Source: Ulva prolifera (Eukaryota; Chlorophyta; Ulvophyceae; Ulvales; Ulvaceae). From it: a DNA stretch of 64,000 bases. Positions 21,324 to 54,429 of the stretch are shown here, in pieces. The stretch lies in the NCBI GenBank assembly GCA_023078555.1, contig CM041196.1:1364001-1428000 (forward strand). The letters are read 5' to 3'. Below the pieces are notes generated by a model. The model did no database searches. It was not told the DNA's origin and saw only the letters and a program-made list of their open reading frames with translations. The translations under genes were made by a program, and so were the position numbers. Each line of letters begins with the position of its first letter. Position 1 is the first letter of the stretch.

Positions 21324-24300
21324 CTAATTTGTTACGCCAGGCCCGCCCTGCCATAGCACCGCGCTGCCGCCGAGCACTCCCCCCGCGGCTCCATCGCCAG
21401 TAGCGTCGACAAACCACTGGTGCCGAGGCAGGTGGCTGGGCGACGCCGGCAGGTGTGCCCGCGACGCAAAGTCACGCCACCGCTGCTGCGCCGCCGCGAG
21501 CTGGCACAACCTCATCATGTCAGCCTTCCCCACACGGCTGCAGAGGTGCGCTGACCACACGCGCGCGGCCTGCAGCGGCCGCAGCAGCACGCCCGGCTGC
21601 ATCTGCAGCTCCTTCGTTTCGCGCCGCATCCGGCCATGCGCTTCGTGCACCTCCCTCAGCTCCGTCAGACCCCGCTCCGCCTCCGCCGCTGCTTGTGCAC
21701 TGGCGCCCAGCATGCGCAGCACGCTGCTAGAGTCGCCCTCGTCGACACCAGGTTGAGCAGACGCATGTGGCTCATGCATTAGGGCTGTAAGCCGGGGGCC
21801 CTTTGCAGCAGCAGCGGCGGTGATGCGGGCTACGAGCGCCGGTGGGATGTCGGCAGGTTGGGGGAGGCGGCCCAGGGCGGCGAGGGCGGCGCGGAAGGGC
21901 GCGTCGAGTGCCGTGCTGAGCTGCTTCCACATGCTGAAGTGCGCAATCAGGCGGCGGCGGTCGTCCTCTGTGAGCTGCAGCTGCCGGTACAGGTGCACGT
22001 GGAAGCTATCGGCCTGCATCCGAGTTTCAGGTGATCAACGATGGACTGTAATACGATGAAGACTGCCATGCATCTGCATCAGTAGCCTAGCTGCGCCGCG
22101 GGGCACAGCCTCCCTGGCATGCGCACAGGTGGTCCCACGCCCACAGTGCCCTGCGTGCATGAAGTCCTTCCCTACTAGGTTAGTAACTGCTGCATGACTA
22201 TTCGCATGTACGGTGTGTAAACTTTCGACACTTTCCATCGAGCATGTCAACAGTGACATATGACACACACAACCAAGTACAAGAGAAATTCACTGACACG
22301 CTCATGATCTGTGAGCATTGGAATGATTCTCAGCAGCAGCGAATCAGCCCTCAGCAACGGTCCATAGGTGCATGCATGTGCTCCAGGCGTAAGACTGCGC
22401 ACGCGTGCGGAGCAAGCGCAGTCTGCGCGTACATGCATGAGCATTCAAAGCTCCTGCGCTTTCGGATACGGCTCAGCGAAGTAAGGTCACTGTACTTTGC
22501 AAATTGCATGCACAGGCACGATAACACGCAGACCCCCTGACACAGCCTGACACACAGCGGCAAGGGCAAGCTTGAATCACGCATGGTGCGTGTTGCCCAT
22601 GTGTTAAGGGGCTCACCTCGCCGTCCACGGTCAGGGTGTTACAAGCGAGCACGGAGTAGAACTGCACGTTTGCGACGGTCCTGGGAGCCCCGACAAGCGT
22701 CAGCCTGTGCAGCAGCGCGAATGCCGCGAGGGTGCTGTGGGAGTACTCCTCCAGGTTCTGCTCTGGGCTGTGGCCATGGCGCGCGAGCGGCGGCCCCTCG
22801 GCCTCCTGTAGCCACACCCACAATACCTCAGCACCCCGATCCGGTAGCCGTCACTGGCACCGAGGTTACTGCAGTGCCATGGCAGGCCACACGGGGCACG
22901 AGGGCCTGCCACAATGGGATGAAGGCAGGCATGGCAGCGCAGCATGCACAGCAGCGGCGCACCAGCCGCCGCAGCAGTTGCATGTTCGCCGCGGCGTCCA
23001 GCGCTTCGACGGTCAGCTGCACAGTCCCCCGCCCGGCAGCCATGATGCGGGCCATGAATTGCTGGACTTCGAGATTCGAACGGCCAGAGTTGGCGGGCGG
23101 CACGGCGGCCCCTCCCGCCTGCCACCGTGCCGCGCTCAGGTCCGATTGCATCTGCGTCAGGGTTTCGTGGGAGGTGGCCAGCAGCCGGCACAGCACGGGC
23201 AGCGGCAGCACCCGGCAGAAGCGGCGCAGGAGCTGCCGCAGCGCAGCGTGCACAGCGGCGCGCGCGTCATGCACCTCGCCGATTCCGACGCGTACACACC
23301 CGGCCCACCCCGGCGAGCCTGCCTCGCGCATGCTGTGTGCTGCGGCAGCCAGGGAGGCGCGGCGCGCCTGCTGCGATTCGCCAGGTGTCGAGGCAGAGGC
23401 ATCGGATGCTGTGTCTGAGGGGGGGGCTGTGTTAACAACGTTGCCATGTGGAGGTCGGGGGGGTGCGGAGGCTGGCGGCGGCTGCGCCCGGGCCGCCTTT
23501 GTCGGCGGTGGCTCCTCTACGGCAACCGCACAGGCTGCAGAGGCCCTGCAGCGGCTGTCCTGCGATGCGGCAGTTGCCTGCACGGTACCTGCAGACCGCA
23601 ATTGATTGGCAGATTTCAGGCAGGCATGCCGGGGCGTGGCCCGGCGCAACGCGCCCCACATGCATGGCCCATGTGGGCAAGGCAGCAACGCCCGACGCAT
23701 AGCCTATAGTATGTATGTGTACATAGCCGTATCCATCTCAAACAAGCTTGACAACTCTGAATTCCGGGACCGATAGTAGTATAACTTGTACTGCCAGTGC
23801 TTGAAGGCTGGGTTTATAAAATTTGCGCGCAAATTTGAGCGCACCGCCAGCTTGATGCGAGGCCGCGGCCGTCATCAGCATCAGCTCGATGCGTGATATC
23901 AAACCATGCAGCACAAACGATGCCATGCACTCGGGGGAGCTCAGCGTCGCAGACACCGACAGAGGCACCCCCGCCGCCGCCTCGTACATCGTCTGCACGA
24001 ACCAGCAGACGTCTGCGCTTGGGAGCTGCAGCTGCGCAGCCTTGCGCGCGCACACGCGCTCGGCGAGGTCCGCGAGCGCGTGCTGTGAGAAATCGACGAG
24101 CCGCGCGGCCGGGTCCGCCGCAGCATGCAGGTCTTCGTATGAGATCCCGGCGGTGCCGCGGAACGCGGCGATCTGGCGCGGGGGCTGGTACAGCGGCGCC
24201 CGCAGCACGCAGGGGCAGCGCTTGGTCTGGATCAGGGCGCCGGTGACGCCCGGCGCGGCTGGCCGGTTGTTCACGGCGCTTGCGTGGCCGGAGGGGTGGC

Positions 24301-26051
24301 ACTGGTCTGGTGACCCGCTGGGTCTGCGGTTGAGGCATGCCCGCGCGGCGGCATATGTGGCGGATACCACCGGCTGAGGAGATGCCCCGGACGGCGCGAG
24401 ACTTGCCGGCGGTGCATCGGCGGATCGGCTGGTCCGATTTGACTGCTGGGCTCTGACCGCCGCGAGTGCGGCCGCCGCGTTGGCGATGCGGGTAGACTGT
24501 GTGACCCGCTGGAACTGCAACGCGGAAGATCGTTCTCGCGCATCATCCACGGCCTTCTGGGCGTCTCCGACTCGGTCCTCGAGAACCCCGACCGCTTTCT
24601 GCATGCAGGCGGCCACACGCTGGTTTAATACTCACGAACAACAAAGTTCGAAGTGACGCACAGCGCCGTGAGGCTGAGCCTGCGTGAGTGTGGATGGTTC
24701 TAGGTGAAAAACACTTAGTGGATGCGATTTAGCCTTCGGTCCCTCCTCGGCGACCGATTACACACGTGTGTTTTATTCCTGTCACTCCTCTGTAAATTAC
24801 ACATGGCTGTCGCGAGACTTGATTGCGGCTCCATTGGCGCTTAGCGCTAGCGCTTGCGCAAAGGTCGGCCGGGGCGCAGAACAGTGAACAGATCTACACA
24901 ACTGTGATTCCTGAGGGGTACTTGCGCTACATTAAGCCGTCGGGACGCACAGCGACGCGATCGCAGCGTGTGTGACGCCGGCGCGCCATCGGCAGCGCGG
25001 GATGTATGCATATGGTCGTGGAAGGGCACACTTACTAGGGAATGTTTCCACTCTATATGCCAATCAAATAAATTTCAAAGTGGCTACAGGGGGCAATTAG
25101 GAGCCGGCCCATCAACATGTACTTTCTGCTAAAAGTTCGATCAATTAACATTTTCTACATTTGCAACTTTTATGATCACAATTCCAGCAGATATGTTCAT
25201 GGCGAGAGCTGTGTCCACGAATGTATGATCAGCGCGAGCTACAAGGACACGGTAGACGCGCAGAACATCAGCTGGGTCCACGAACCGAAAGGTCCTGGAC
25301 TACATGCGAATAAGGGTTACAGAAGAGTGGCGACCAGTCGGCGGACGGTGCAAAGTGTGCGTCACATCTGTCACACCATGAACATCTGCGACGGCAACCC
25401 CGCAGAGAACGATGTACGCACGTGCACACCAGACAGTGAAAGAATCAAACGGACGCCTTGATGAAGTTGCGCATTGTGATGTGTATGCGCAAGCGTCCGA
25501 GGTAGCGTGCAGGACGTGCAGCGACTCTGCTGCGACGCCAGTGGCCATGCCACTCGACCACGCTTCTACAAGCCGAGATAGCCCTGATCAAACGCGCTGA
25601 AGGCCCAAGGGCGACTAGTCCTGCTGATACATGACGATGCATTGCAGGATGGCCCTGGCGTTGCCTGAAAGCACGAAGGGAGCCTCGTCGGCACGTTCCG
25701 CTTACGCCGTTTAAGCCTGTCTAAAACACTCGGATGACCGGAAAATGCTCGCAAGCTAAGTATTTTATGCAAGCTAAATATTTTGAATCTGCTGCTTGGA
25801 TTGCCGCCTAGGACTAGATGCCACTCGGCCGGCGAAATCGCTTGCCAGAGTGGCGCTGCGTGCCCGAGACATGCCTCTGCGCACCACCGGCGACGTGTCA
25901 TGGAACGCAGCCAAAAATGTGAAAATAGCGGACGAGAGCATGCCTGTTGGCGCTGTCGATATCGGGCCTGCGCTCCACGGTTTCGGGTCCGAGTTCTGTC
26001 GATCCTCGCGTCGACGGTGCCCTCATCGATGGCCATGGCGGCCTCGTTCAA
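21324..26051 (-). CDS. bZIP-family protein, array copy A
   Basis: Five exons: 25944-26051, 23845-24598, about 22930-23534 (both ends uncertain), 22617-22826 and 21324-22013. The product is roughly 790 residues. Exon 1 ends in a bZIP basic region (RNRGAQARYRQRQQ); exon 2 opens with the zipper, KAVGVLEDRVGDAQ and on. Joining them through GC donor CAG|GCATGC gives N-x7-R-x9-L and heptad positions L, A, A, L. After the zipper, exon 2 has a conserved block (SYEDLHAAADPAARLVDFSQ ... ADVCWFVQT ... LSSPEC). Exon 3 has RRFCRVLPLPVLCRLLATS, exon 4 the LEEYSHSTLAAFALLH block, and exon 5 HLYRQLQLTEDDRRRLIAHF through MQPGVLLRPLQ. I do not recognise this C-terminal region. A DNA-binding transcription factor is inferred from the bZIP alone. 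Exon 1 is 21 bases longer than in the other copies. Confidence 0.8.
22455..22500 (+). repeat. partial dispersed repeat (GGATACGGCTCAGT family)
   Basis: Contains TTCGGATACGGCTCAGCGA followed by ACTTTGC, matching the second half of the copy at 8,195-8,290. It sits in intron 4 of array copy A. Confidence 0.45.
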
Positions 26052-28375: not shown

Positions 28376-28397
28376 CACCAAGCCTCACCACCACTGT

Positions 28398-29010: not shown

Positions 29011-32000
29011 CTACACGGGCATGCTGCTGCCAGCCACCTCGACCGTGCCCTCAAACCACTGGTATTCCGGCAGCTGCGGCGGCGACTGCTGCTTGACGAT
29101 GACGCTGGACAGCGACGCAAGGTCACGCCACCGCTGCTGCGCCGTCGCAAGCTGGCACAGCTTGATCGTGTCGGCCTGCGCGGCGCGCCGGAGGATGTGC
29201 GCCGACCACACGTGCGCGATCTGCAGCGGCCGCAGTAGCACGCCCGGCTGCATCTGCAGCTCCTTCGTTTCCCGCCGCACCCGGCCGTGCGCCTCGTGCA
29301 CCTCCTTCAGCCCCAGCAGGCCCCGCTCTGCCTCCGCCGTCTCCTTTGCACAGGCGCCCAGCATGCGCAGCGCGCTGGTCCACCCGCCCTCCAACGCATC
29401 ATCTCCAGCACCGGTATTTGCATGTACCTCATGCACTGTGCCGGCGTTTCGCGCGGACTTTCCGGCTGCAGCGGCGCTAATCCTTGCCACAAGTGCCGGC
29501 GGGGTGTCGGTGGCCTGGGGGAGGCGCTCGAGCGTGGCCAGGGCGGCGTGGAAAGGCGCGTCAAGTGCCGTGCTGTGCTGCTTCCACGCCCGCAGGTGTG
29601 CGACCAGCCGGCTGTGGTCGTCCTCTGTGAACTTCAGCTGCCGGTACAGGCACACGTGGAAGCTGTCAATCTGCAGCAGTGCATCCCGTTGCTGTTTTGT
29701 GAAAGCTTTACAAATGTAGGCCCGATGAGACCTCACCCTCATCAACTTGTGGCACTGGTACTGCTTGGAACACGCTTGCGCTGCTGCACCACATCGACTC
29801 GCACCACCAGTGTGCACGTGCTGCGTGCTGCGTGCTGCGTGCACCCCAAGCCCCAAAGACGGCGGCTGTGTTGACCATGCATTGCCGCTGCAGACAGGGG
29901 GGTAGGCACTCAGGCCTAGAACGTGTTAACACGTTCACCGGGATCGTGGGGCACTCAAACATCGCCCAGACACGCTGGGAACGTCTATGGACTCGCAGTA
30001 ACCCACAGGGCATCGCCAAACGGTCGCTGCCAGTGGGCAACAAGGGTGAGAATGGCCAGCGAAAAGGCCTTTTTCGCCGAGGATCGCGATATTGCCCATC
30101 CAGTCCAAAAAACAGCGCCCAGCGCATGCCCATCGTGCTCGGTGGGCCGAGAACACCCTATAGGTTGTAAACCGCTGTTATAAAAAACACCATAACATGT
30201 CTCGCAGGTGTTCAGTGACTTACCGACCTGCTCTAGTGGCTTCTGACGACTCGTTGGGGACGATCCTGTATTTATGACGGTGGATAGAGGCCACCGCTCC
30301 AGAGTCGATCCCGCTACTTACAAGTGCTTCGAAGATCTGGCAATTCATAAGGAATGTGTGTTCTGTGCGTGACATCAGTCAGGCAGGATTAGATCCGCTT
30401 GAACGTCCTAGCTGATCGGTTGGCCTACGCGAAGGCGAATGCGATCGGTGAACACATTCTATAGGCCTGATCAGACTAGAGCGCCTACCCCCCTCTGAAG
30501 ACTGTTCATCTGTGCACGAGTATCTCTAGTATCTAGAGATATGACATGTACATCGAACAACCTTCAATTCAGAATCCCCACCACTAGCAGCCTACACACC
30601 AGCAGTAAGAGCAAATCCACACATACCGTATATAATGTAATGACAGAGGCGTTGTGGGTCTTGCTGGCACAGGACGCGGTTTTCGGGTTTATTTATTTTT
30701 CAGCCGTCGTTAATGTGGCTACAAGGACAATCATGCTGTTTAGTTTACATGCAGGGGTTCGCTGCTTTGATGCCGTTCGGGTCGGGACACACGCATTCTT
30801 GTTTGGGCGCTCGATTACGCCTGTTCCTCCAGATTTGAGCAGCTAGTTCGGGTAGCCGCTATGGGCCAATCTAATGCCATTGACAGAAACGTTGACGTGG
30901 CAGCAGACGACGAGCCAGCTAGTACGGCCTTGACCGGTGCCACTATTTATCACTGGTTAATTTAATTTTTTTAATTTGAAGACATTTGATCCTGACAATG
31001 CCGAGCATGTTGCTGCAAAGGCAGCGAGAGATCGCAACTTGAAAGAAGCTGAGCGTTCGCAGCTGTGACAGTTGTCAGGGCCTTTGATGGATGTGAAACA
31101 CAGGTGCATTTTGGTGTTTGTCTTCTTCCATTCACTCTTTTGTAAATTCGTAAAGCAGGTGCATGTGCAGTGGTACCTGAATTAGCTAGGACACCTAGGA
31201 CACATTTTGTACCGCTACGTGTAGCGGCACTTACTGGGAGGGGACAACACCATGAATCGTTGTTCGTCGGTTGGCTGGCGAGTCGAGAGACACCACGAAA
31301 CATCTTTTCTGCATCTCGTCAATATTAGGGTCCACAGGATGGGACACAGCATTGGTTTCGTGTTTTTCACGGTTTTTGGGACGGACTCTGACGACTCTTT
31401 ACATTACACTCGGAGTCTAGACAGCTGTGCATGCAGCTACCTGCCTCTGTGTCCTTGACCTTTTAACACACACGGGCATGCTGATATAAAGGGGGGCAGA
31501 AGTAAGGTATCAAGCCGCTGCCGCATGCTATACTAGAGCCACAATGGGCACTGGCAGGTCAGTACAGTCGCACCCAGCAGCAGCTTTTGAAGGCGTATCG
31601 TATGGCAAACACATGCATGCTGTTCATGCATGGTGGCTACAGGGGCACACGCACCTCGTCGTCCAGGCGAGAGAGCACGTGCGTGCCGTAGAAACTCATG
31701 TTCATCACGATTCTCGGCGCCGAGAGCAGGGCCCGGTGCTGCAGAAGTGCACAGGCCGCGACGGCGACGTGGGCATACTCCTCCAGGTTCAACTCCGGAG
31801 CGATATCATTCCACGGAAGGGGCCCGGCCGGTCCGTGCGCCTCCTGCAGCCACTCCCCTGCCTTCTCAGCCCATGCTGCAAAACGCTCGCGCCCTCGCGG
31901 GCACACGCTTCTGCGGCGATAGACAGAGATGCCATGGTGAGAGCGGCCTGCCAACACAAGGCCAGAAACAAACTGGCATGACAAGATCTCGGGCGGTAGG

Positions 32001-35000
32001 AGGGCTCACTTGCTCATATGATTGCCAGTAACTTATGAGCATATGGGACACCGTGAACTCGGACGGGTCCACAGAAGGCGGGGCCCGCACTCATGCACGC
32101 AGAGCAGCAGCAGCAGCGCACCATCCGCCGCAGCACATGCATGTTGGTCAACGCGTCCAGCACGTCCACGAACACCCGCGTGGCGCCGCGGCCGGCCGCC
32201 GTCGCGCGGGCCATGTACGCCCGCAAGTCCTCGCTGCTGCGGGCGTGTGCACTGTGCGGAGCCGCTTCCCCACCGGCTTTCCACCGCGCGGCGCTAAACC
32301 CGGACTGCATGCGTGCGAGCACCGCATGGTACGACTCCAGCAGCCGGTACAGCACGGGCAGCGGTATCTGCTGGCAGAAGGTGCGCAGCAGCCGCCGCAG
32401 GATCGTGTGAACGGCCACGTCCGCATCAAATGTCTGGCCGACGCCGACGCGGACACGGGACGACCACCCGGGATCCTCTGCCTCGGGTGCGCTGTGTGCT
32501 GCGGCAGCTGGAGGATCCACGTCCCCTAACGTCGGGGCACGAGCGTGGCCAGAGCTGCCGGGTGCCTTGGACAGGGTTCGCGCGCCGCCATGTGGATGGG
32601 CGCCGGTGGGGGGCGGCGGTTGCGGCCGGGCTGTTTTGGTCGGCTGCGTGTCCTCCTTCACCGCGCAACTGTCATCGCACAGGTCTACGCCGTTGCCGTG
32701 GTCCGACGCACCACCTGCTCTTTGATGGAGCTCTGCATGTCAAGGCCCCCAGCATTAGGGACAGGTGGCCGGCATCCTATGTCTCACCCCCGGCTCATGC
32801 ATGCCCCCGTCCGTCTCACATACCATATCCTGCTGCTTGCAACTGAAGGTCAGGCCAGAAGACACGGGCACAGCGGTCCTTAAGGCACCTCGGCGTCGCC
32901 CGACAAGGACAGATCGTTCAATTGAGAGTTGAATTGCCAACAGCCGCAGTATCGTGCAACATGCTCCCTGCTGTGGTGTGGCAATGACAAGCAATGCAGC
33001 CGGACGAGAAGTTCTGCATCCAGGCCTGCCAAGTGGAGGCATCAGCGCATGGAGTCGAACACACCGTATTCCGCATGCGACGCCGCAGCCGTGATCAGTG
33101 TCATCTCCAGCCTTGAGATTAGATAGTGCAGGGCAAAGGCTGCCGTGCACTCGGGGGAGCTGATGGATGCCGACACCGAAAGGCGTGCCCCCTCAGCCAC
33201 CTGATACTCCGTCTGCACGAACCAGCAGACGTCTGCGCTTGGGAGCTGCAGCTGCGCAGCCTTGCGCGCGCACACGCGCTCGGCGAGGTCCGCCAGCGCG
33301 TGCTGCGAGAAGTCGACGAGCCGCGCGGCCGGGTCTGCCGCAGCGCGCAGGTCCTCGTACGAAATCCCGGCTGAGCTGCGGAACGCTGCGATGTGGCGCG
33401 GGGGCTGGTACAGCGGCGCCCGCAGCACGCGGGGGCAGCGCTTGGACTGGATCAGGGCGCCGGCGATGCCCGGCGCAGCTGGCCGGCTGTTGCTGGCGCT
33501 TGCGTGGCCGGAGGGGTGGCGCTGATCTGGTGATCCACTCCTCTCGCGATCGAGGCATGCCCTCGCAGCGGCATATGTGGCGGAAACAACCGACTGATGT
33601 GGCCGGTTGATCTTCTGCACTTGCCTTGCCGTCGTTGGGTGAGCCGCCTGTTGAGCTCTAAGCGTCGCCAGTGCGGCGACGGCGTTGGCATTGCGGCTGG
33701 ACTGTGAGACCTGATGGCGTTGCAGTGCGGAGTATCGCTCTCGCATGACATCCACGGCCTTCTGTGCATCGGAGACTCTGCCTTCGAGAGCCTCAACTTC
33801 TTGCTGCACGCATTACTCAGAGTCTGAGTATGATAATCGAGTGATCACGACCATGGCAGTCGGAGTGACAACCAAGGTTGTGCGCGCATCATGATGTTCA
33901 TGTGCCTGTGCTAGCTACAAGGGCAAAGCCAGAAAGGCAGGTAGCACCGCATGCGCCTGCGCAGGGCACAAAAACACCCATGCAACTACCAGCACGCAAC
34001 ACAGACCAGCACCGCACCCGCCAACACCCACAACCACCCACCCACACGCACCACCCCCGCACCACGGCTCGGCACCATTGCAGTTGATCATGAGGCCCAC
34101 GCAGCCCAAGTTGCAGAATCACACGCAGCCACCCAAAACAACCCCGGGGAGGCCCCAGCCTCCCCCAGCGGGACCCACCCGGAACTAGTCCCAGTACTAC
34201 ACCAGGCCACCAGGCCCCCACACCCACAACTTGAACTCTGCCGGTGCCTGTACTACTGGGATGTAGTAAATCCGCACCCCCGAAACCCAACACTCCCTTC
34301 CTGCACCCCCCAGCCGCACCCTCGCGACGGGCAACAAGCATACCGATGGCCAGGCCGGCGAGGGCGCTGGGGCATGCTGAGTGTGAGGCCGGCCGTCTCG
34401 GCGATCAGCGATCGGCGCAGCAAGTGCCGTCACTGATCATGACGTGGCACCTGGAGTTTCATGACGCAGTTGCATGCAACAGCGATTGAATCCCCCCTCG
34501 TGCGTTCACTGCGGGCAAAATGGAAGCTAACCATCGAGATCCCATAGCATGCGGCAAATGAGCAGCAGAGCAGCCAGCAGCCGTGCACAGCGCACCCCCC
34601 AGCCACCACAGAGCAGGGGAAAACTTGTAAACACCGCGTGAAAATTGCGAGGGCACGCCTGATCCGCAGCGATGGCTGGTGCGGACGAACAGTGAAGTGC
34701 AAAACGGGCCCCCGATTTCACAGCACTTTGTAGAGCATGAGATGGTGGGCTGTAGCCACCCTTTCAGCACATAGCAGGAATAGCGTGTTGCTGCATTCTG
34801 ATGCGATCACGGTCGCTGCAGTGCCTCGCTTGACTGTGTGAAAATATTGCTGAGTGCTGTGATTGTCGATGTCGGTGTTACTGTGATTCTTGCACGAGTA
34901 GACGAACCTGCATCACAGTGGAGAGACAGGAGCAGGTGTGACAATTTGTCAAAAGGCTGGGCAATTCCGGGCTGCGAGCACCGAGCTGCTACATATCTAG

Positions 35001-38825: not shown

Positions 38826-41051
38826 CTATGCCGGCATCTGCTGCGGCGGCTGCTGCTTGACGAGCACAGCATTGGACAGCGACGCGAGGTCACGCCACCG
38901 CTGCTGCGCCGTTGCAAGCTGGCACATCTTTATCGTGTCGGCCTGTGCCGCGCGGCAGAAGATGTGCGCCGACCACATGTGCGCGATCTGCAGCGGCCGC
39001 AGCAGCACGCCCGGCTGCATCTGCAGCTCCTTCGTTTCGCGCCGCACCCGGCCGTGCGCCTCGTGCACCTCCCTCAGCCCCAGCAGCCCCCGCTCCGCCG
39101 CCGCGGTCGCCTTCGCGCATGCCCCCAGCATGCATGGCCCGCAGCCCCACTTGGCCTCCCCCACAACCTCACCAGCGCCTGCACCGCAGCAGGCACGTGC
39201 ATGTGGCTCATGCACTGTGCCGTTGAGTAGCGCGGGGTCCCCGGCCGCGGTGGCACTGATGCGGGCCACGACCGCCGGAGGGATGTCGGCAGTCTGGGGC
39301 AGGAGGTCAAGGGTGGCTAGGGCGGCGCGGAAGGGCACGTCGAGCGCCATGCTGTGCTGCTTCCACGCCCGCAGGTGCGCGACCAGCCGGATCCGGTCAT
39401 CCTCGGTGAACTGCAGCTTTCGGTACAGGTGCACGTGGAAGCTGTCAATCTGCAGCAACGCACCCACACATGTTGCAGCTGCGTGGAGCATGCCATCGCA
39501 CTGCCCTTCAGAATTGCCGATGACACACGTTGCAACTGTTGCGACAACATGCCAGCGCACTGCTTTTCAAAACTACCAGTGAGGCTACTGTTTTGAACAC
39601 GCTCGTGGCCACTGCATAACATGGACTTGCACCGCCAGGGTGCTGCGGGCATCAGCGGCCCCAACCCGAATGAATCGGCGTCTACACCGCTGCAGCTGCA
39701 TCCTGTTCACCTACACAGAACGGATGGATGCGACACCAGGTAGACGCCCCCAACACAGAACCCCCTTGACAAGCAGCTGACATACCCGCACACACACAAT
39801 TCCCCAATGGAAGTGACCATGTAATTATGCAAACATACATGCAATGGCTCGATGCCCGGCCTCTGTCCTTTGTAACAACATACATGCATACATACTCACA
39901 GTCAGGCACACTCACGGAGGAATCAGATAAGGAGGGTCCCGGGCCAGTTCCTCCTGCTGTGCCATAGCTCCAAGGGGCAGGACGCCCTCCGTAATGCATG
40001 GCGATACATGCATGGTGTCTAGAGGGGCATGAGCACCTCATCGTCCAGGCGAGAGAGCACGTGCGTGCTGTAGAAGCTCATATTCATCACGATTCTCGGC
40101 GCCGAGAGCAGCGTCCGGTGGTGCAGCAGCGCACAGGCCGCGACGGCGACGTGGGCATACTCCTCCAGATTCTGCTCCGGGTCGCGCTCACCCCCCGCGA
40201 GGGGCCCGGCAGGGCCCTGCGCCTCCTGTAGCCACTCCCCCACCACCTCAGCCTACGCTGTGAGCACCTCGCGCCGTCAACAGGGTACAGCGAGTGAGGG
40301 CTGACAACACACAGGCAGGCACCAACTGGCATGAACAGCGGGGTGGCCTTTCACAATATCTGCAGAGGACGGGGCATGCATCCATACATGCAGAGCAACA
40401 GCACACCAGCCGCCGAAGCACATGCATGTCGGTCATGGTGTTGAGCACGGCCACAAACACCCTCACGAGGCCGCGGGCTGCTGCTGTCACGCGGGCCATG
40501 AACGCCCGGGCACATTCCCTGCTGCGCACGTGCGCGCTGAGCGGCACCGCATTGCCGTCGGGCTTCCACCGCGCGGCGCTGAACCCGGACTGCATGCGTG
40601 CGAGCACCGCATGGTACGACTCCAGCAGCCGGTACAGCACGGGCAGCGGGAGCTGCGCGCAGAAGGTGCGCAGCAGCCGCTGCAGGATCGTGCGAACAGC
40701 TGTTGCGGCGTCGAACGTCTGGTCGACGCCGACGCGGACGCAGCCTGACCACTCGGGCTCTCCCGCCTCGGGTGCGCTATGTGCTGTGCCGGCCGGAGGG
40801 CCCTCATCCTCCGATTCAGAGCCACGCGCGGGGCCAGCGCTGGCGGGTGCCTTGGAGGGGGTGCCAGCCTGCGCGGAGGCAGTGGGAGGCTGCGGTCGCG
40901 CCCGGGCTGCTTTCGTCGGCTGCGCATCCTCCGCAGGATCTCCTCCCTGGAAGAGCTCTGCATGTTGACAGTGGTGACCTCAGCATCCGTAGCGGCCAAC
41001 CGCGTTCCTGGTGTCGAGACAGCTGAATCAGCATACCATCAGAGCTAGAAT

Positions 41052-41089: not shown

Positions 41090-44000
41090 CATGTGTAGGC
41101 AGGTTCTTGCCAGAGCCGGCACATGGGGAGGCACGGGTCGATTCTGTGGGGATGCGCCACAGCAGGCGCCCCACAGCAGGCCTGAGAGGCGCTCAGCGCG
41201 GCTTTGATCGGCAACATCGAGTTTACAGCACTGACCTCCTTCCACCCTGTGCAGTGATAAACAAGACTTGCCGAACCACCCCTGCCTCACTCATGGCCGC
41301 ATCGTTCCTTGCGGACCATGCTCCGCTGCCGGGAGATCTGGCCAAAGGATGGTCTTCATGAATTCGTCAGGACTGTGTCCTCAAGGGACGCGAGCACAGC
41401 AGTACCCTAAGCACCGAGGTATCACCCTAGCAACACTGGCTGAATGATGGAAGCAGCCGCGATGGTGAGCGCGGTGCTACGTCGCCATCAAGGACAAGCA
41501 ATGAAGTGAGTCAGGGGACACCGCGTCAAGGACTGCCAAGTGCAGGTGTTACAGCATGGGGTCGGCAGCACACCGGAATCTTTGTGCGAAGCCGCGGCCG
41601 TGATCAGCGTCATCTCCAGCCTCGAGACCAAGTAGTGCAGCACAAAGGACGCGAGACACTCCGGAGAGCTGAGCGTCGCCGACACCGAGACGGCCGTGCC
41701 CGCCGCCGCCTCGTACACCGTCTGCACGAACCAGCAGACGTCTGCGCTCGGGAGCTGCAGCTGCGCAGCCTTGCGCGCGCACACGCGCTCGGCGAGGTCC
41801 GCCAGCGCGTGCTGCGAGAAGTCGACGAGCCGCGCGGCCGGGTCTGCCGCAGCGCGCAGGTCCTCGTACGAGATCCCGGTGGAGCTGCGGAACGCGGCGA
41901 TCTGGCGCGGGGGCTGGTACAGCGGCGCCCGCAGCACGCGGGGGCAGCGCTTCGTCTGGACCAGGGACCATGCGCCGCCCGCTATACTGGAGCGGATCCT
42001 GGCGCTGGTGTTGCTGGCGTGGCCAGAGGGGTGGCTGTGTACGGGATCTGCGCCGGTGCCGTGGTCCAGACCCGAACTTATCGGGATGTATGTGCCGGAT
42101 GTGAGCGGGTCCAGAGGGGGACCACCCGGCGTGTGAGCTGTTGACGCGGCGTGGTTTGGCTGCTGGGCCCTCTCCGTGGCTAGAGCGGCCGCAGCGTCCG
42201 CGGCACGCGTAGATCTCAATACGCGCTGTCGCTGCAGCTCTGCGTGGCGGTCGTAGGCTGCAGCAATGGCCTTGTCCACGTGCCGGCATTTCTGTTCGAG
42301 CGCCTCGCGCTCTTCCTGTGGAAACACAGAATAGTTCAGTTTGCCGGGACCATCCGGCGCATGCATCACGAGGAGGTGCGATGCGACCGAGAGCAGCGTC
42401 AGTCAACACATGCCGCCGCTCCCAGGTGGGACTGACGCGACCACAATCAAATGCACCTGTAGCCGCAGCACGGCCGCGGTGATCCGGGAGACATCGTAAC
42501 TTATGAAGCCGTATATATCGTACATGATGTACCTGCTGAACATGGATAATGCTGAGACTGCCCGCGCTTGACATGCAGAAGGGGCAGGGGTGGACGAACG
42601 TTTGAGCCTGCATGATGCTGGGTTTGCAGGAACTCCAAGACCTAAAATCAGGCCAAATTGGGCGTCGCGCCTCGCCCAGCTGGGGAGATATCCTACAGAC
42701 CTCCGAGTCAGCACCCGCAGGGACTGGGCCAGTGACCAGCGGAAACAATTACCAGGCATCACGATCATATTTGTGCATGTGGTACACCGCCGCTGGGAGA
42801 AGACCGTGACGTTGTGACAGTAGTGTCTTTCAGGGGTCTGAAGCCCGGCCTCTGGGGCAGCTCTAGAGTGTGTCTTGCAACCAAGGCATCCCATTGACAA
42901 AGCAGCAGTCACAAGATGATGTACTGATAGTCACCTTCATCAGATGCAACATGCGATCTCATGGACGTGTGCAACATACAGGTGATGGCTGCTGTCATCG
43001 ACTTTCAGAGCATTGACGACTCAGGATAATCGGATCGGACAAACAACGTGACTCGACGAGCCTGCTTCGGCGAGACGCTTGCCAGACTTGTGACAACTGT
43101 TCGCAGACAGTGTGTTACAAGGACAAAGGCAGCAAGTCGGGCAGCACCGCGAAAGGAGCAAGCAGACGAAGCAAACACCAAGACACCCACGAACATCTCA
43201 CCCATCACCGGCGCAGCAAGCGACACAGATCCGCAGACCGCCAAGCACACACCCACACACCAGCACACAGGCCTGAGCGGCGAGCCGGCCTGAGCGGCGA
43301 GCCGCCCGCGGCGTCCTCGTCGCTCTCTCGCGGGCCGGGCGCCGTCCGAGGCTCGGACGCGCTGGTAGGCGGCGTGTGCTGCCGCGGCCGTGTGCCCCGG
43401 CCCCCGAACACGGCGCGCCTCGGGCGTGCTCCGTTCCGGGTGGGTCCGCGGATGGGGGCGCCCCCGTGTGTGTTGTTCCGGCGCCCGGGGCTGGCCTGAT
43501 CGGGGCGTTGGGGCGGGGGTCCTGGGGGCCCCCGGCGGCTTCCGTGTGGGGCCGGCGCCGGCCAGGCCGCTGCGTGGGGCTGCTGCTGCCGCGCGGGCGG
43601 CGGGGTCGTGTAGCGTGTTGGCGTGTGGGTGTGTGTGTTGGGGGTCGGGTCTGGGCCGCGTGCGGGTGCGTGGGTGCGTGGGTCGGGTGTCAGTGAGTGG
43701 TTCGTGTGGTAGTGTGTGGGAGCGTGGGGGTGTGTGTGTGCTCGTTGTGCCTTGGCGTTGGCTGTGGCTCTCCTGCTGCGTGCGCATTGCGTTTCTTATG
43801 CTCTCCCTTTTGGTCCTGGCGGTGCTACCTGCCCCTCCAGCTTTTTCCTTTGTAACACACCAGCACACACACGCACAGACCCACACACCCACAAACCCAA
43901 ACCCACACACGCGCACGCACAAACCCGCAGACAGTGTGTACCACGCAGGATGGCAACGCGTGGCATGGACATCCGAGCAACAGCACACTTTTCAGGTGCG

Positions 44001-44808
44001 TCCCGACGACGTGACATCGATATCTATGACCCTTCGCGCTGTGTCGCTTTAGCAAGTGTTACCAAAAAGTGAACGAAAGCCGACAAATTCCACAAAATAA
44101 TCGCATTAGCAAGTGGGTTTCGTGGACGACGAGCTCCGGCTCCCAATTACAAAAGAGTGGACGACGAGCTCCGAGGGAGTCCGGCAAGACGGCATGCATC
44201 TCGAAACACCATCGGCAGCCACACTCGATCCGAAGACGTAAGGGGGCTGAAAACCACCAGAGTAACAGTTCTGTTTTGACAGCTTAGCGCCGTACAGCGC
44301 GTTTGTGTGTCCGCTTTGCCACCGAAGGAGAAAGCATATCGATAGGGCACAGCGACGCGTGAGGCTCTAGAGTCTAGACCCCCAGATCTGGGGATGCCTT
44401 GCGCGAGCTCGAACGGCAGCAGACACACACAGTGCAGTCAGATACGCGCATGCGGGACAGCATCTGAAAGTAGATGATATCGAACTCGCAGCCGTGCACC
44501 TGCTGTTTCGTACACTTTTGGAGCGGCTTGTGCAGACTCGACCAAGCGGCGATCGCGGCTGGCGCACAAGGCATCCCCAGAGCCTGAAACAGGACAGAGC
44601 GCGAGCGACAACAAAGAAACGGCCGCAAATGGTCAGAATCAGACTGATGGCATCCAATTTGGCGCTCTCGATCACAGACATTGTGAAAAACTGCCAGCTG
44701 CAGTGACTGCTGAGAGCGTGCCTGCGCGCGCCGTCGAAAACGGAGCTGCGCGGCGCGATTTCTGGCTCGAGTCCTCTCGAATCTGGCATCAATTTCCTTC
44801 TGCTCCAT
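38826..44808 (-). CDS. bZIP-family protein, array copy C, 3' truncated by a stop
   Basis: Five exons: 44722-44808, 41574-42315, about 40370-40957 (3' end unresolved), 40037-40246 and 38826-39449; about 750 residues. Exon 1 is 29 residues ending RNRAAQLRFRRRAQ; exon 2 begins EEREALEQKCRHVDKA. The GC donor is CAG|GCACGC; heptads are L, V, A, L in exact bZIP register. Later blocks: SYEDLRAAADPAARLVDFSQ, TFCAQLPLPVLYRLLESYHA, LSAPRIVMNMSFYSTHVLSR and HLYRKLQFTEDDRIRLVAHL. Compared with copy B, the C-terminal LPEYQWFEG has become MPA-stop-QWSEG, so translation ends about 12 residues earlier although the similar sequence continues past the stop. ATG 44808 is preferred because it matches the B and D starts; an in-frame ATG exists at 44901. 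Confidence 0.78.
39860..39882 (-). repeat. short dispersed element, inverted, partial
   Basis: Reverse complement begins GTTGTTACAAAGGACAGAGG. The flank GGCTCG.TGCCCGGCCTCTG is shared with the copy at 51,731-51,772. It lies in intron 4 of copy C. Confidence 0.5.
41053..41088 (+). repeat. poly(G) run of 36 in intron 2 of copy C
   Basis: Thirty-six consecutive G on the plus strand (C on the coding strand) between exons 3 and 2 of copy C. This is the longest homopolymer in the window. Confidence 0.97.
43108..43150 (+). repeat. short dispersed element, forward, in intron 1 of copy C
   Basis: TGTTACAAGGACAAAGGCAG followed by TCGGGCAGCACCGCGAAAGG; C/A-rich DNA follows. An inverted partner is at 43,790-43,860. 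Confidence 0.7.
43790..43860 (-). repeat. short dispersed element, inverted, in intron 1 of copy C
   Basis: Reverse complement: GTTACAAAGGAAAAAGCTGG, GGCAGGTAGCACCGCCAGG, ACCAAAAGGGAGAGCA. It is nearly the same over about 65 bases as the copy at 47,081-47,150. The plus strand left of it (43,400-43,790) is G/T-rich. Confidence 0.8.
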
Positions 44809-47080: not shown

Positions 47081-47150
47081 GTTACAAAGGAAAAAGCCGG
47101 AGGGGCCGGTAGCACCGCCAGGACCAAAAGGGAGAGCACGAACAGCGCAA
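47081..47150 (+). repeat. short dispersed element, forward, embedded in (TG)n DNA
   Basis: TGTTACAAAGGAAAAAGCCG, GGGGCCGGTAGCACCGCCAG, GACCAAAAGGGAGAGCACG. TG repeats lie directly on both sides (47,056-47,080 and from 47,156). Confidence 0.85.
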
Positions 47151-47153
47151 CGC

Positions 47154-47296
<143 letters not shown>

Positions 47297-48068: not shown

Positions 48069-48140
48069 TCCGCCTCGTCTTGCACGCTGCCCCATGTACA
48101 CGCTTTGAGCTGCCACTGTAGCTTCTGCCGCAATCAGTAC

Positions 48141-48358: not shown

Positions 48359-51300
48359 TTACGTTGTGTAGCCACTGTGCCGCTCCGCCTGTAGCCACTG
48401 GTGTTTGAGCGGCTGCATTGGCCGCAGCGGCAGCGGGGCGTGCACGTCACGCCAGCGCTGCTGCGCGGACGCGAGCTCGCACACTTTCATGAGGTCGGCC
48501 GGCGCGGTGCCGCGCCCGAAGTGAGAGGTCCACAGGCGCGCGATCTGCAGCGGCCGCAGCAGCACGCCCGGCTGCATCTGGACCGTCATCGTTTCCCGCC
48601 GCACACGGCCGTGCGTCTCGTGCACGTCCATCAGCGCCAGCAGACCCCGCTCCGCGTCCACCGTCGCCACGGGGCAGGCCCCCAGCATGCGCAGCACGCC
48701 ATCCGACTCGGCATCGTCCGCCAAGCCTCCCGACCCACCACCGCATGCATCCGAGCCATGCGTAGCTGCACTACACGCGCCGCAGGGAGCCCACTCGCCG
48801 CCGCCTTCGTGACTTCCCGCAGCGGCGGCGCTGATGCGGGCTACGACCGCCGGGGGGATGCCGGCGGGCTGAGGGAGGCGGCCCAGGGTGGCGAGGGCGG
48901 CGTGGAACGGTGCGTTGAGTGCCGTGCTGAGCTGCTTCCACATGTTGAAGTGCGCCACCAGCCGCCTGCGGTCGTCCTCTGTCAGCTGCAGCTGCCGGTA
49001 CAGGTGGACGTGCAGATTGTCGATCTGCATGCTGTGAAATTTATGTGAGGAAGGTGGAAGCCTGTGTCCACAAGGACAAATCTTCACAGGCAGGCAGGCG
49101 GTGCCGCATGTGACCCTCATGCACATAGCACAATGACACCATACCCAGCGCCACACCCCAATACTGCGGGTTGTTCAGGCTCTAGTCACCCTGAGTTGCA
49201 CAAGCTGCGACTGCCCGGGAACCGTACAGCGGCAGCAAGGGAATTTTGGCATTTTGTGAGCTCGGCCGAGCACTAGCATTTCAACCAGCTTGTGGGCCGA
49301 CCACGCACTCAGGGAAGGCCGGCCCGAGGGCCGGCACCCGCACACCATGCTGCCACGAGACCATGCGTTGCGCAGTGAACGTGCTGGAGTTTCACAGTGC
49401 GTGGGTGCGCGCGATGCCGAGCGTGTCATGGCACACCTCGTGAAGGCGGGCGAGCGGGAAGACGCCGTGAGAGCAGAGCGAGCGCGCGATCCGTGGCGCG
49501 CGGTCGAGCACGGCTTTGTGGAGGAGCGCATAGCTGGCCACGGTGAGGTGGGCCTGCGCCTCTAGCCACTCCTCCCGGCACATCCCCGGGCGCGCGGCAT
49601 CGCAGTGTGCTTCCGCCTCCTGCACACACCACCCCCGCTGGATCAGCAGCAGCGCATGAGGCCCATGCAGTGTCACATGGCCAATTCGCAGTCCGAGGTT
49701 TGCGACGCGAATGCGGTCAGCCGACGCGCACAGCGAGCAGGCCGCTTCCACCCGGCCGGGATCCCGATGAAATACGCGAAACTATGACGAATCTCGGCAA
49801 AACCTGCCTTGCTTCACCGGGACGCCCCGTGGCAAAGAAGGGCTAGAAGAATGAGGGCGGCGGGGCGCACCAGCTGTCTGAGCGCATGCATGTCGGCGAC
49901 GGCATCCATCTCGTCCGCGAACAGGCCGACGATGCTGCCGACTGCAACCACGACGCGGCCCTTGAAGACGTGCAGCGGCACCCGGCCTCCGTCACGGCGA
50001 TCCGGTTCCGCGTCCGCCTCCGCCGCCTGCCCAGGAGGCGGCCGAAAACTCGCCAGCATGCGGTCTACGGCAGAAAGGTGCAAGGACAGCAGGCGATGCA
50101 GCTCGGTGAGGGGGACGCGCTGACAGAAGGTGCTCACGAGGCGGCGCAGGATCCTGCGCACCGCGGCTCTGGCGTCATGCAGCTCGTTCACGCCACAGCG
50201 CACGCACCCTGACCACTGTGGCGTGCGCGCTGCCGTGCTCGGCTGGCCGTCGGTGGCGGGTGCCCCTGCGCGCGGCCCAGAGCACACGTCCGATGCACGG
50301 CGCACTCTGGCGGGTGTCGCATCACCATGGCTGAGCTGAGCGCTCCGCGCCGGCATGATGTCCTCTGTCAGTTTCATCATTTTTGTCAGCATCGGCGGCT
50401 GGACGTCCCCTGTCGAGACGTCTGTCACATCGAAGCAGCTGCTCCTGTGATCGATGCCGCCACAGTTGCCACAGTTCCCTGCACCACGCACACGTCTGTG
50501 CGCGTGACATATGCAGCATGCAGCACCGCACCAACTGACATGCTGATATTGCGATGAGGCTGCATGCAGCCCCTCCATATGACAAAGCATACTTGCGAGC
50601 AGACGGTTGAGGTCTCAGGAGGTTGAGGTCTCAGGACCCGGCCACCACTGGACACGCATGCATGCTGGGATGATGCCAGGGCAGTGAACAAGCACACCAA
50701 GCACACCGCCAGGGCGAGCGAGCGAGTACACCAACGGCCCAACGAATCCACATTGACTCCCCCGAACGCAACTGCTGCTCTGTGCAAGTCTGTCAGTGCA
50801 TCTCCAGCAAAGGCACACACCAGCCCCTGTGTTACAAGGACAGTACAGGAGTAACACCGGCAGAAAAAAAAAAAAACGGGCCCTGTGAGTATGGCTATGT
50901 AAGCATGCACGCATACACAGTACATGCACGGCCGGCTCGTAGTCGTTGATTTAAATGTCCATACTGCTGTCTGATTCTTTCGCGCTCGTTCGTTTCATGT
51001 CGTCTCTGCTCTGCGCACCACAGGCTTGGCACGCTCTGGCCCGACTCAGCTGTGACGGCATGTCTGCTACTCCTGCCGCTATGTCCCTTGGCGGCGAAGG
51101 TCATACGGTTGCACTACAAGTTATCACTTTAATATTGTGCGGCGTTTGGCTCGCTTCTGGGCATGGCGGATTGCCAGCATGCTCCGTTCTGCGGGTCGGC
51201 TTGGGGCGGTACCGGCGAGGCACACATGTCTGCATGTTGCCTTCCGTTGTCAGCGGTCGCGCGGACGAGGTTCAGCGAAGCTTTTCATCTAGGTTCACGT

Positions 51301-54300
51301 TTCAGTGGCGCCGCTATACCCTTTTATGGCGCCCTAGCGGCTTCGAGATGATCATGGCTTCAGCGGTCCCGCGTCCTGCTGCACTGCTGCGTACAGCCAA
51401 TTCTGTCGGCACCCAGCTGCTGCGTACAGGTTCCCAGTGTGGAAGTTATGATCCCATGTTCATCCGCTACGATACCCCGTTCTCTGAAAATTTGCGGTGC
51501 GTGAGGAGATGGTTTCCTGCTGGCTGTACGCCAGCGCTGTTTGCTGCAACGGCTTTGACGGTCATGCGACGATGGGCTGCGTGGTTGATGACTAGCTGCT
51601 TCCTTGTGAAGCTGGATGCCTGTGTTTTTTCTGATTGTGAAGACGCTTTTGAAGTTTCTCATGTGCACTTGCCCGTAGTGGGTGTGCACTGGCCTGGTGA
51701 ATGAGTGGATTTGCGTGTGGGTTCCTGGCAATGGCTCGGTGCCCGGCCTCTGTCCTTTGTAACTACACAGTACAGCCGGTAGGGCCACAGGCCCTGTGTG
51801 GTGCATCCGGCCTTGTGCCATGAATGAGTGAATTGGTTCGGGAGCGGATTATGAGAACATGTAGCATGTCCGGCCTCTGTACTCAAGTACAGCGTACATA
51901 GTACATACATCCACACATCCCTACACAGATATACATTCCATAGGAGCTGGAATATGAGCCAGCCAGCCAGCCAGCCATGCATGGCCACAGCCAGCCATGC
52001 ATGGCCACGACCACCACCTCCTTGGGCCTCCTGTGCGTTGGTTGGTGCGTGCGGGTGTCCGGGGGTGGGGCCCCATGGGGTTGTCACTGCCTGAGGGTGG
52101 AGTGCAATAAAAAGGATGAGGGCGGCCAGGGAGATGGCAAGGGTGATGGCAAGGGTGCGGTGCCAACAAGGTGGTGTGGGGCAGAGGTCATGGCTGGTAA
52201 ATGCGGTTGACTGAAGTGCATCAAACTTGAAATCATTCGATCACTTACATGCTGGCCTGTGCGGATGCGTGTCCGAGCGAGAGCGCCAGTGCGTGGTCTT
52301 TGATTGGGCCAGGATATCATGACATGCCCGCTCCTAAGCGGTGGTGGACCAGACCAAAGGGCGGCATTGGTGTCGGGTGTGCCCCAGTGGCAGCACGTGT
52401 CGCAGCATGTGGCCACATCAGGCGTCTGCCCATGTGGCACAGGGACCACACTGTAGAGGCAGGGGGCACCCCAGGCACCCCAGGCACCCGCATCCGCTCG
52501 TGCGGTTCGCTGTTGGCTGGCCCAGATGGGGCCAGGCAGGTGGAAACCCCGATTGCTGGCGGCGCCGCCAATGCAGCCACATCATTTCCACGTCATTTCA
52601 CTCATTTCACCTGACAGCGATCGCTGTGCTGCTGAGCCTACGCACATCATGATACACGCGCCACATACACACATACACGGCAAAGCAAGACAAATGCGGC
52701 ATATCAGAGATGCCGCGGGACACGACTGCGCACGCAAACAGCCGGAGTTGCACTTGCAGACGGGGCTGCGGGAGGGACACCACGCCGACAGAGCCAGCGG
52801 GTACGGATGCCTATCCGATGCAAAAGCATGCATCGCGGGCCCGCGATTCGCGGCACATTCCGCACGAGCGCACAGCCCCGACATCCAGCGCCGACTCGTG
52901 AATGCAGTCATGCAGAGAAGGCTGGCCAGTGGCATGCGAGTCCACGTACACCGCACCTGCAGTGTCTGGGGCCACACCAGCGCCACTTCCGGAGCACTCA
53001 CTGGCCGCAGTGATGAACGTGAGCTCCAGCTTGGACATCAGGAAGTGCAGTGCAAATGAGGCTGTGCACTCCGGGGAGCTGAGCGACGCGGACACAGACA
53101 GGGGCGTCCCTGTAGCCACCTCATACGGCGTCTGCACAAACCAGCACACGTCTGTGCAGGCCTGCGCCGGTCGCAGCCGCGCAGCCTTGCTTGCCATCGC
53201 CTGGGGGAGAAGCGTCGACATGGCGTGCTGGGAGAAGTTGACGAGGCGCGCGGCGGGGTCTGCCGCGGCGCGCAGGTCGCCGTATGAAATGGTCGCTGCG
53301 CAGAGGAACTCGGCGATCGGCCGTGGCGACGGGGCCCAAGGCTGCTGGAGCGTGGGCGTGCCGCGTGGCTTAGGGGCTCGGGCCAGTGCGGTGCAGGCCT
53401 GGCGTGGCGCCTGGGGGCCTGCGGCAGGGCTGACCCCTGGGCCTCCTCGAATGGAGCTGCGCTGCAGCATGCATGTGTGATCAGCGTGGCCCCCGCAAAC
53501 GACCGTGGCAGATGTGCCGAGGCCGGAAGACTGCCCCGACGGACCCTGTGTTGTCCGCGCGGCGGCAGCGGCTGCAGTAGTAGCGGGAGTTGGTGGCTGG
53601 AGGGACCTCAATGCAGCCAGTGCCGATGCGGCGTCGGCGTTGCGCGTTGACAGCACGACAAGCTGCCGTTGTAGCTCCACGTGGCGATTTTGAGCTAGTG
53701 GCACCCTTCGCTTTGCGTCGTGAATTTTCTCGAGGATGGCGTCGCCCTCTGCCTGCATAAATCATTAACTCTTTGGATCCCGTGGACGAGACGTTCTGTC
53801 AGTCAAAGCACCAGACAAGCTGTGTTCGTGGACCGCTGTATGAGGCTCTTTGCAAACATGTTGTCTTGCACAGGATCGCGATGCTGGATGTCTGGAACGG
53901 TGGTTGGGAGCTGCAATGTTGGGCTGCAGACAGATTGAATGACTGATGGGACTGGGCCAGTACCAGCAGCAAGGTCACAAAGACCAAAACATGCTAAGCT
54001 ACAGCTGGCCAGCGATGATCCCCTGCCATGTGCCTCAGTCATGGGCACCTGCCAGTGTCACCAACTGCACTCGCAGTTGAACTCTCTGGCAGAAGGCGTA
54101 TCATACCATTATTCCATGCGACCAGCACATCTCAAAGCTGAAGCAGAATTATACGGAGTTGATTTACTACTTTCACGGGGACTGGTGGTGGCTGCTCCAG
54201 ACATGCTCCGTGCAACAACAACAAGTGCACAAGCAATGCTCCAATGTACATTGACATGCGCGCAGGCAGTGCATGCAGGGACACGAGTTTGATTTTCATA

Positions 54301-54429
54301 GTGATTGACGTGGCAGAACGTTGCTGGTGGATGGATGTGTGCCTGCAGTCGCTGGCGGAATCGCAGCTGAGAAGACCTATTCCTTTGGCGCGCCCTGTCG
54401 AACCTGGCATCAATTTCATCGGCATTCAT
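48359..54429 (-). CDS. bZIP-family protein, array copy D
   Basis: Five exons: 54343-54429, 52978-53752, about 49850-50478 (3' end unresolved), 49437-about 49637 and 48359-49024; about 780 residues. Exon 1 is 29 residues ending RNRSSQLRFRQRLQ; exon 2 begins AEGDAILEKIHDAKRRV. The GC donor is CAG|GCACAC. The bZIP spacing holds with Ile at the first zipper position (I, A, A, L). This is the most diverged copy: exon 2 has SYGDLRAAADPAARLVNFSQ and DVCWFVQTPYEVATG but a shorter, altered centre; exon 4 is REEWLEAQAHLTVASYALLH; exon 5 is HLYRQLQLTEDDRRRLVAHF with C-terminal LKHQWLQAERHSGYTT. Intron 2 is about 2.5 kb (0.3-0.6 kb in the others) and contains a plus-strand open frame between inverted short elements. 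An in-frame upstream ATG exists at 54522. Confidence 0.78.
50605..50636 (+). repeat. two tandem copies of a 16-bp unit
   Basis: GGTTGAGGTCTCAGGA is repeated directly in intron 2 of copy D. Confidence 0.9.
50828..50862 (+). repeat. short dispersed element, forward, in intron 2 of copy D
   Basis: TGTGTTACAAGGACAGTACA, then GTAACACCGGCAG, followed by a 14-base A run. It pairs as an inverted repeat with 51,731-51,772. Confidence 0.6.
50955..51704 (+). CDS. 249-codon open frame in intron 2 of copy D, unrecognised
   Basis: An uninterrupted plus-strand frame, antisense to the bZIP gene, beginning MSILLSDSFALVRFMSSLLC and containing GSYDPMFIRYDTPFSENLRC and RRWAAWLMTSCFLVKLDAC. It has no recognisable domain, no signal peptide I trust, and a base composition lower in GC than nearby exons. 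The inverted short elements at 50,828 and 51,731 bracket it, so it could be cargo of a small insertion; it could equally be chance. Confidence 0.25.
   Translation: MSILLSDSFALVRFMSSLLCAPQAWHALARLSCDGMSATPAAMSLGGEGHTVALQVITLILCGVWLASGHGGLPACSVLRVGLGRYRRGTHVCMLPSVVSGRADEVQRSFSSRFTFQWRRYTLLWRPSGFEMIMASAVPRPAALLRTANSVGTQLLRTGSQCGSYDPMFIRYDTPFSENLRCVRRWFPAGCTPALFAATALTVMRRWAAWLMTSCFLVKLDACVFSDCEDAFEVSHVHLPVVGVHWPGE
51731..51772 (-). repeat. short dispersed element, inverted, in intron 2 of copy D
   Basis: Reverse complement: GTAGTTACAAAGGACAGAGG, then CCGGGCACCGAGCC. Confidence 0.6.

Follow-up and report, generated by a model that had tools for sequence, protein, structure and literature searches.

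Four tandem genes of the green alga Ulva prolifera, encoded on the minus strand of a 64,000-nucleotide stretch of contig CM041196.1 (C1:1364001-1428000, hereafter the window, to which all positions without a contig label refer), are fairly likely to be paralogous basic leucine zipper (bZIP) transcription factors of a lineage-expanded Ulva family with a SAK1-like regulatory tail. The genes, A to D, lie head-to-tail from 54429 to 21324 with five exons apiece, and we take them for a real, expanded version of a known kind of protein, whose function we infer to be, probably, that of stress-response regulators.

Gene structure of the array

Spliced models, built from the exon borders common to the copies, were assembled for gene A (54429-48359, 778 amino acids), gene B (44808-38826, 737 amino acids), gene C (37348-29011, 768 amino acids) and gene D (26036-21324, 790 amino acids), with the methionine closest to the basic region as the presumed start. 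All four models are open throughout and have intron phases 0,1,0,0 in common; their proteins are 46-69% identical in pairs, and the exon blocks of the four copies align pairwise with E-values down to 1e-113, far beyond chance. The original prediction of four head-to-tail genes on one five-exon plan is borne out by these models and their agreeing phases, and the six motifs that it quoted were found on the minus strand where it had located them, either exactly or with substitutions.

Exon 1 encodes the starting methionine and the basic region (A, 54343..54429, NRSSQLRFR; B, 44722..44808, NRAAQLRFR; C, 37262..37348, NRGAQIRYR; D, 25944..26036, NRGAQARYR) and ends in all four copies at a GC donor (CAG/GCAYRC; GCACAC in A, GCACGC in B, GCATGC in both C and D). 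Introns 2-4 all start with GT, the longest introns reach 3.5 kb, and, since the donor of intron 1 is GC, a GT rule would miss the border between exons 1 and 2. Exon 2 (A, 52978..53752; B, 41574..42315; C, 33065..33803; D, 23845..24598, with the zipper helix modeled below) encodes the zipper and a block marked by CWFVQT, accompanied by SYGDL in A and SYEDL in B and C. Exon 3 (A, 49871..50478; B, 40407..40957; C, 32122..32732; D, 22963..23588) carries a PLPVLYRLL block in B that reads PLTELHRLL in A, where the start is ambiguous between at least two open phase-1 AG acceptors, the later of which was used. Exon 4 spans 210 nucleotides in B (40037..40246; LEEYAHVAVAACALLH), C (31655..31864) and D (22617..22826; LEEYSHSTLAAFALLH). 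It had been thought limited to three copies, a claim that fell with a 201-nucleotide exon 4 in the fourth, gene A (49437..49637), which is diverged from the other copies, has proper splice sites (ATCCAG acceptor, GTGTGC donor) and scored 33.9 bits by tblastn versus a maximum of 23.5 among 300 first-order Markov shuffles. Exon 5, the SAK1-like last exon, runs to the stop codon (A, 48359..49024; B, 38826..39449; C, 29011..29670; D, 21324..22013).

The bZIP region

Splicing at the GC donor places the first zipper position 10 residues past the invariant arginine, as the bZIP rule has it, and the resulting register, N-x7-R-x9-L, shows leucine in B, C and D, and isoleucine with leucine next to it in A. 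Gene B has the NxxAQxxFR contact residues unchanged; in C and D Tyr replaces Phe, and in A Ser replaces Ala. Asn, Gln and the last Arg recur in all ten basic regions seen (A-D and six elsewhere in the genome), a conservation that is no independent measure because the scan demanded Asn and Arg and, at the third place, accepted Ala and Gln alone. Pfam bZIP_1 was matched in all four spliced proteins, at 12.3 bits in A (scanned without its exon 4), 17.3 in B, 24.3 in C and 18.7 in D (E-values from 0.19 to 3.3e-5), all under the curated cut-off of 27.6 bits; this shortfall is one of score threshold, not a structural feature, and the bZIP assignment is kept on the direct motif. Structurally, the bZIP part of C found its best solved-structure match in ATF-4 (E-value 0.0014), and AlphaFold2, applied to individual exons with alignments of four rows, predicted a helix over residues 2-55 of exon 2 of D, with 10-residue means of the predicted local distance difference test (pLDDT) of 76-90 over residues 1-50. 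The bZIP part, earlier called clear, is so in its motif and, in D, its modeled zipper helix, but not by the Pfam cut-off, which all four copies miss.

Family size and genomic distribution

The genome searched (88.9 Mb in 44 contigs) has a plastocyanin exon that agrees at 48 of 48 residues with PDB chain 7pcy_A, from Ulva (formerly Enteromorpha) prolifera, with 1iuz, from Ulva pertusa, as the second hit; a haptophyte or dinoflagellate source, which the GC donors had brought to mind, was discarded on this match. In this genome, the last exon was found at at least 48 loci on six contigs (C1, C2, C4, C6, C7 and C8). Searches with the spliced B protein and with the last exon of A returned 65 exon-level matches and 57 matches, respectively (E-value ≤ 1), while a diverged exon 2 returned 38, and three diverged last exons 37, 15 and 53 (E-value ≤ 0.01). 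A hidden Markov model (HMM) of the last exon matched all 45 loci picked by these searches (E-value ≤ 1e-16), 25 of them from the pool used to build it and 20 (L068-L087) from outside it; two, L061 and L068, carry the second half of the domain only. Seven further places were compared with the HMM, of which L089-L091 were nearly full length, L092-L094 partial and L088 without a match, so that the count of 48 is made up of the 45 and the three nearly full-length loci, with the partial ones uncounted (L093 may share a gene with L061). Stop codons fall within family loci at C7:5786475, C7:5598483 and C7:5622314, and L068 (C7:5622000-5622850), with both a TGA and a TAG inside one last-exon match, is a probable pseudogene of the C7 cluster, judging from its sequence.

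Evolutionarily, a tree of 43 of the 45 last exons (the half domains L061 and L068 were dropped) included clusters of nine genes at C7:5.60-5.66 Mb, five at C2:11.8 Mb, four at C8:4.1 Mb and the four of the window. One set (support 100/99) unites the four window genes with two at C7:5.77-5.79 Mb, and because the C7 pair nests inside the window set, with at least two label changes forced by well-supported branches, copies have probably been transferred between chromosomes since the array arose. Overall, cluster labels need 9 changes on the tree (minimum 8) versus a shuffle mean of 23.8; taken singly, neither the window array nor the C7 pair is more tightly clustered than in shuffles (54 and 500 of 500 as low, respectively), as the nesting implies. 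The local amplification proposed in the original prediction thus holds for the tandem array, but not as a one-off event, given at least 48 loci, the other clusters and the C7 pair nested within the window array.

The five genome matches to Pfam bZIP_1 had no tail better than an E-value of 0.1 inside their 3.1-3.2 kb loci, and no relatives were confirmed in viral contigs or in bacterial and archaeal genome contigs. The open-licence literature matches listed included no publication on this Ulva family, which is not to claim its absence from print.

The C-terminal region

Downstream of the zipper, no convincing Pfam, PDB or fold match was obtained for any of the four proteins, bZIP_1 being the sole Pfam match of any credit, and tail profiles found nothing better than an E-value of 0.26 among solved structures. 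AlphaFold2 modeled the CWFVQT block as helix-strand-strand-helix at low confidence and exon 5 of D as all-helical around a loop (mean pLDDT 41). The CWFVQT block had a single weak Pfam match, to DUF5996, in one of nine members (E-value 0.0018), and the literature searched held no description of this block or of the exon-3 and exon-4 blocks. For the last exon, the strongest Pfam hint was LTXXQ, found in two of the 12 members scanned, out of 22 distinct members at the time (best E-value 3.9e-5), and two of the three LTXXQ matches genome-wide lie in this family. LTXXQ proteins have a helical-hairpin fold in common with Cnr proteins.

The last exon resembles a stress-signaling domain described from single-celled green algae. 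Wakao and colleagues reported in 2014 a C-terminal SAK1 domain (residues 900-1089 of SAK1), ~150 residues long and predicted to be mainly helix broken by disordered stretches, whose top PHYRE match was the cobalt/nickel resistance protein "cnrr" and which occurs in 37 chlorophyte proteins, 13 of them with a bZIP, seven of these sub-threshold in Pfam (PMC4067076). SAK1 itself is phosphorylated, is required for the singlet-oxygen response in Chlamydomonas and is a key regulator of chloroplast-to-nucleus stress signaling whose biochemistry was given as unknown (PMC4067076). In the Ulva family, the last exon is C-terminal, its place and length fit the described domain, and occurrence in a chlorophyte together with a bZIP partner was found for the window copies and six others. 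By place, size, predicted helical make-up, partner and taxonomic home, the last exon is probably the chlorophyte SAK1 domain, in a comparison of features, not of sequences. Our Pfam scans did not show the SAK1 domain, which had been described with bZIPs in 2014. The earlier statement that the region matches no recognized domain survives the Pfam and PDB searches, with weak hints at most, but probably fails for the last exon, which fits SAK1 by its described features. A last exon of this type also comes close to being a known domain always found with bZIP, but the published domain has that partner in only 13 of 37 proteins (PMC4067076).

Several observations weigh against this overall reading of A-D. 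The exon-5 model has a mean pLDDT of just 41, and Foldseek, run on such low-confidence models, gave no match at E-value ≤ 0.001. The LTXXQ matches of the family are weak and under the cut-off, with genome-wide E-values of 0.02 and 0.08, and Metal_resist, which we take to be the Cnr-type family, had two genome-wide matches, neither in this family. At the other end of the protein, A-D lack the Arg that the Pap1 signature has at N-4, and a basic-region exon was not seen in several loci searched, among them L032 and L058 (exon-2 loci outside the window clade) and L013 and L017 (the C7:5.77-5.79 Mb pair), where the flank may be too short; most other loci end short of the upstream basic-region position. 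Membership of the SAK1 group is argued from described features, and SAK1, without a bZIP and mainly cytosolic (PMC4067076), is a protein whose function need not carry over.

As an alternative, the C-terminal region might be a domain set specific to Ulva or the Ulvophyceae, unrelated to SAK1 and acquired independently by the bZIP family. Such an origin would sit well with the lack of any convincing Pfam family, solved structure or fold, and with the lone weak DUF5996 match of the CWFVQT block, yet the last exon agrees with the published SAK1 domain in where it lies, how long it is, its predicted helical make-up, its pairing with sub-threshold bZIPs and its occurrence in chlorophytes, and we think such an origin rather unlikely.

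Descent from a diverged DOG1 domain, which would make A-D relatives of the TGA-type (plant group D) bZIPs that bind NPR1-like or glutaredoxin-like cofactors, is improbable, though attractive by eye: a helix that starts with LT-x-x-Q/D is followed, in similar order, by a linker, a long helix and an L-x-x-Q helix, the best local hhalign alignment of exon 5 with TGA3/7/2 lies near the end of both, where expected by eye, and distant SAK1-domain relatives have been mentioned among plant bZIPs (PMC4067076). The profile scores nevertheless stayed within those of shuffles. Of 40 column shuffles, at least 10 scored higher than the 12.3 of exon 5 (maximum 17.4). Exons 4 and 5 jointly scored 12.2, which 35 of 60 shuffles and 20 of 21 circular permutations equaled or exceeded, with the best alignment elsewhere, and in global mode their score was reached by 13 of 60 shuffles and four of 21 permutations. 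DOG1 (PF14144) itself had no match in the genome at an E-value of 10 and none in the spliced A-D proteins, and we rejected this homology.

Coherence of the gene models

Members outside the window speak to whether basic region and tail belong to one protein. Six members of other clusters also showed the basic-region exon, five of them in one locus with exon 2 (L027, L028, L030, L034 and L035) and the sixth at C1:4436622, inside L052 and upstream of an exon-2 match at C1:4436129-4435794. On the donor side, which is the side compared, all six exons stop at the same codon, followed by GT in five and GC in one. Exons 2 and 3, moreover, form a single open frame in five members (L027, L028, L030, L034 and L058), and their modules thus belong to one protein. 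By sequence, the basic region, zipper, CWFVQT block, PLPVLYRLL block, exon-4 block and C-terminal domain are all parts of one protein with a conserved intron after the basic region. The original prediction that a bZIP and a long conserved partner region share one protein accordingly finds support in the same phases, the shared junction codon, the exon 2/3 fusions and purifying selection, all of it evidence from sequence. A split of exon 1 from the later exons into separate genes or transcripts that only resemble one gene, as introns of up to 3.5 kb and a non-canonical GC donor in intron 1 might suggest, is very improbable against the identical phase and junction in all four copies, a zipper register that fits, the last codon that six members elsewhere have in common with them (five of the six with GT donors) and the fusion of exons 2 and 3 in five.

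The exon at C1:4436622 in L052 is the one with a GC donor, as in intron 1 of A-D, the five other members having GT there; donors of intron 1 switch between GC and GT inside one family. This minus-strand exon also has a longer, acidic N-terminus ahead of the basic region, which the window copies lack and which may be an activation segment, and, since the exon sits downstream of L052's own last exon, it is part of the following gene, which has its last exon in L054.

Selection, gene conversion and genomic surroundings

Among A-D, the whole-protein ratio of nonsynonymous to synonymous divergence (dN/dS) is 0.41-0.49 at dS 0.5-1.1, and selection is purifying but relaxed. A decaying array of mostly pseudogenes kept by recent duplication, for which the stops listed above (C7:5786475, C7:5598483 and C7:5622314) and the partial loci L061, L068 and L092-L094 could be cited, is scarcely tenable with all four window copies open across 737-790 codons at those dN/dS and dS values.

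Synonymous divergence is uneven along the genes. In an 83-codon block from LIQSKRC through CWFVQT, with ends set by hand (minus strand; C, 33207-33455; B, 41716-41964; D, 23987-24235), synonymous differences are 0.076 for B-C, 0.139 for B-D and 0.155 for C-D, as opposed to 0.40-0.48 in the remainder, and the lowest same-size windows elsewhere (0.161 for B-C, 0.214 for B-D and 0.235 for C-D) are all above the block values. Comparisons of gene A with B, C and D show no drop in the block (0.46-0.51 versus 0.56-0.60 in the remainder), and codon constraint is less likely because gene A is unaffected. The simplest reading is that the block has been homogenized among B, C and D by gene conversion, a candidate event drawn from the divergence contrast.

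Within the array, an inverted repeat (43781-43880 and 47057-47156; 100-nucleotide arms, 86% complementary, 3.2 kb apart) flanks exon 1 of gene B and may be a mobile element remnant; its arm at 47057-47156 adjoins a 140-base TGTG repeat (47157-47296). Beyond the low-coordinate side of the array, a minus-strand open frame at 1839-2393 matches the Mo25-like family (PF08569, E-value 5.2e-12) and marks a conserved gene, and beyond the high-coordinate side another (61977-62534, minus strand) matches a calcineurin-like phosphoesterase (PF00149, E-value 3.2e-8). A 20-base unit repeated five times at 17089-17188 aligns with itself in several reading frames.

Proposed function and significance

Functionally, A-D would dimerize through the zipper, and the dimers, going by NxxAQxx[FY]R, may bind TTAC-type half-sites resembling Pap1/Yap targets. 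The SAK1-like domain and the middle blocks could serve as a regulatory module that binds proteins or a signal, recruiting partners or reading stress, and by analogy with SAK1 in Chlamydomonas the tail would probably couple chloroplast or oxidative stress signals to transcription. Many paralogues could then provide a repertoire of dimers with differing targets, in an array that tandem duplication, interchromosomal transfer and gene conversion of the CWFVQT block would have shaped together. Going further, we tentatively propose, as a somewhat unlikely extension, that in Ulva a SAK1-type stress module has given rise to a large set of bZIP receptor-regulators that evolve fast, in which dozens of paralogues would share one helical tail and one signal-reading CWFVQT block, kept uniform inside an array by conversion, and diverging zippers and linkers would make up a combinatorial repertoire.

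If this is true, the locally amplified repertoire would exceed the complete bZIP sets reported for Chlamydomonas in PMC4827209 and PMC2492810. At least 48 SAK1-like last-exon loci in a multicellular seaweed, ten joined to a bZIP so far, would mean a large expansion of transcription factors by green algal standards and would offer a natural experiment on the input of this domain, and the 43 aligned last exons could seed a profile absent from the Pfam copy used.

Comparison with known systems

With the published SAK1-domain proteins (PMC4067076), the Ulva family shares a C-terminal region of 150-190 residues, by prediction mostly helical and with poorly conserved sequence, its home in green algae and, in part of the members, a sub-threshold bZIP. 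Consecutive gene numbers in Table 8 of that paper (Cre03.g179150/179200/179250) suggest local clusters in Chlamydomonas too. SAK1 itself, at 1141 amino acids, without an annotated domain and mainly cytosolic, is unlike the Ulva bZIP family; a CWFVQT-type middle block goes without mention in the parts of the SAK1 description drawn on here, and 3 to 14 SAK1-domain proteins are listed per genus, versus at least 48 loci in Ulva. The TGA factors (PDB 7tac, 7tae and 8gyz) resemble A-D in a bZIP followed by a large helical C-terminal region and in helix order by eye, but they carry a DOG1 domain, to which the Ulva tail has no significant profile match.

In the basic region, the nearest counterpart is the Pap1/Yap1 type of fungal bZIP, a subfamily for which the code RxxxNxxAQxxFR has been given (PMC7261193): NxxAQxxFR is exact in B and present as its Tyr variant in C and D, whereas A has Ser for Ala and the Arg of A-D sits at N-3, not N-4. 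By sequence, A-D resemble the Pap1/Yap subfamily over the basic region, a likeness on which we claim neither membership nor descent. Among green algal bZIP factors, the complement of Chlamydomonas is put at 20 genes in one account (PMC4827209) and seven in another (PMC2492810), totals to be set beside at least 48 loci of this single family in Ulva, with the bZIP seen in ten of its members.

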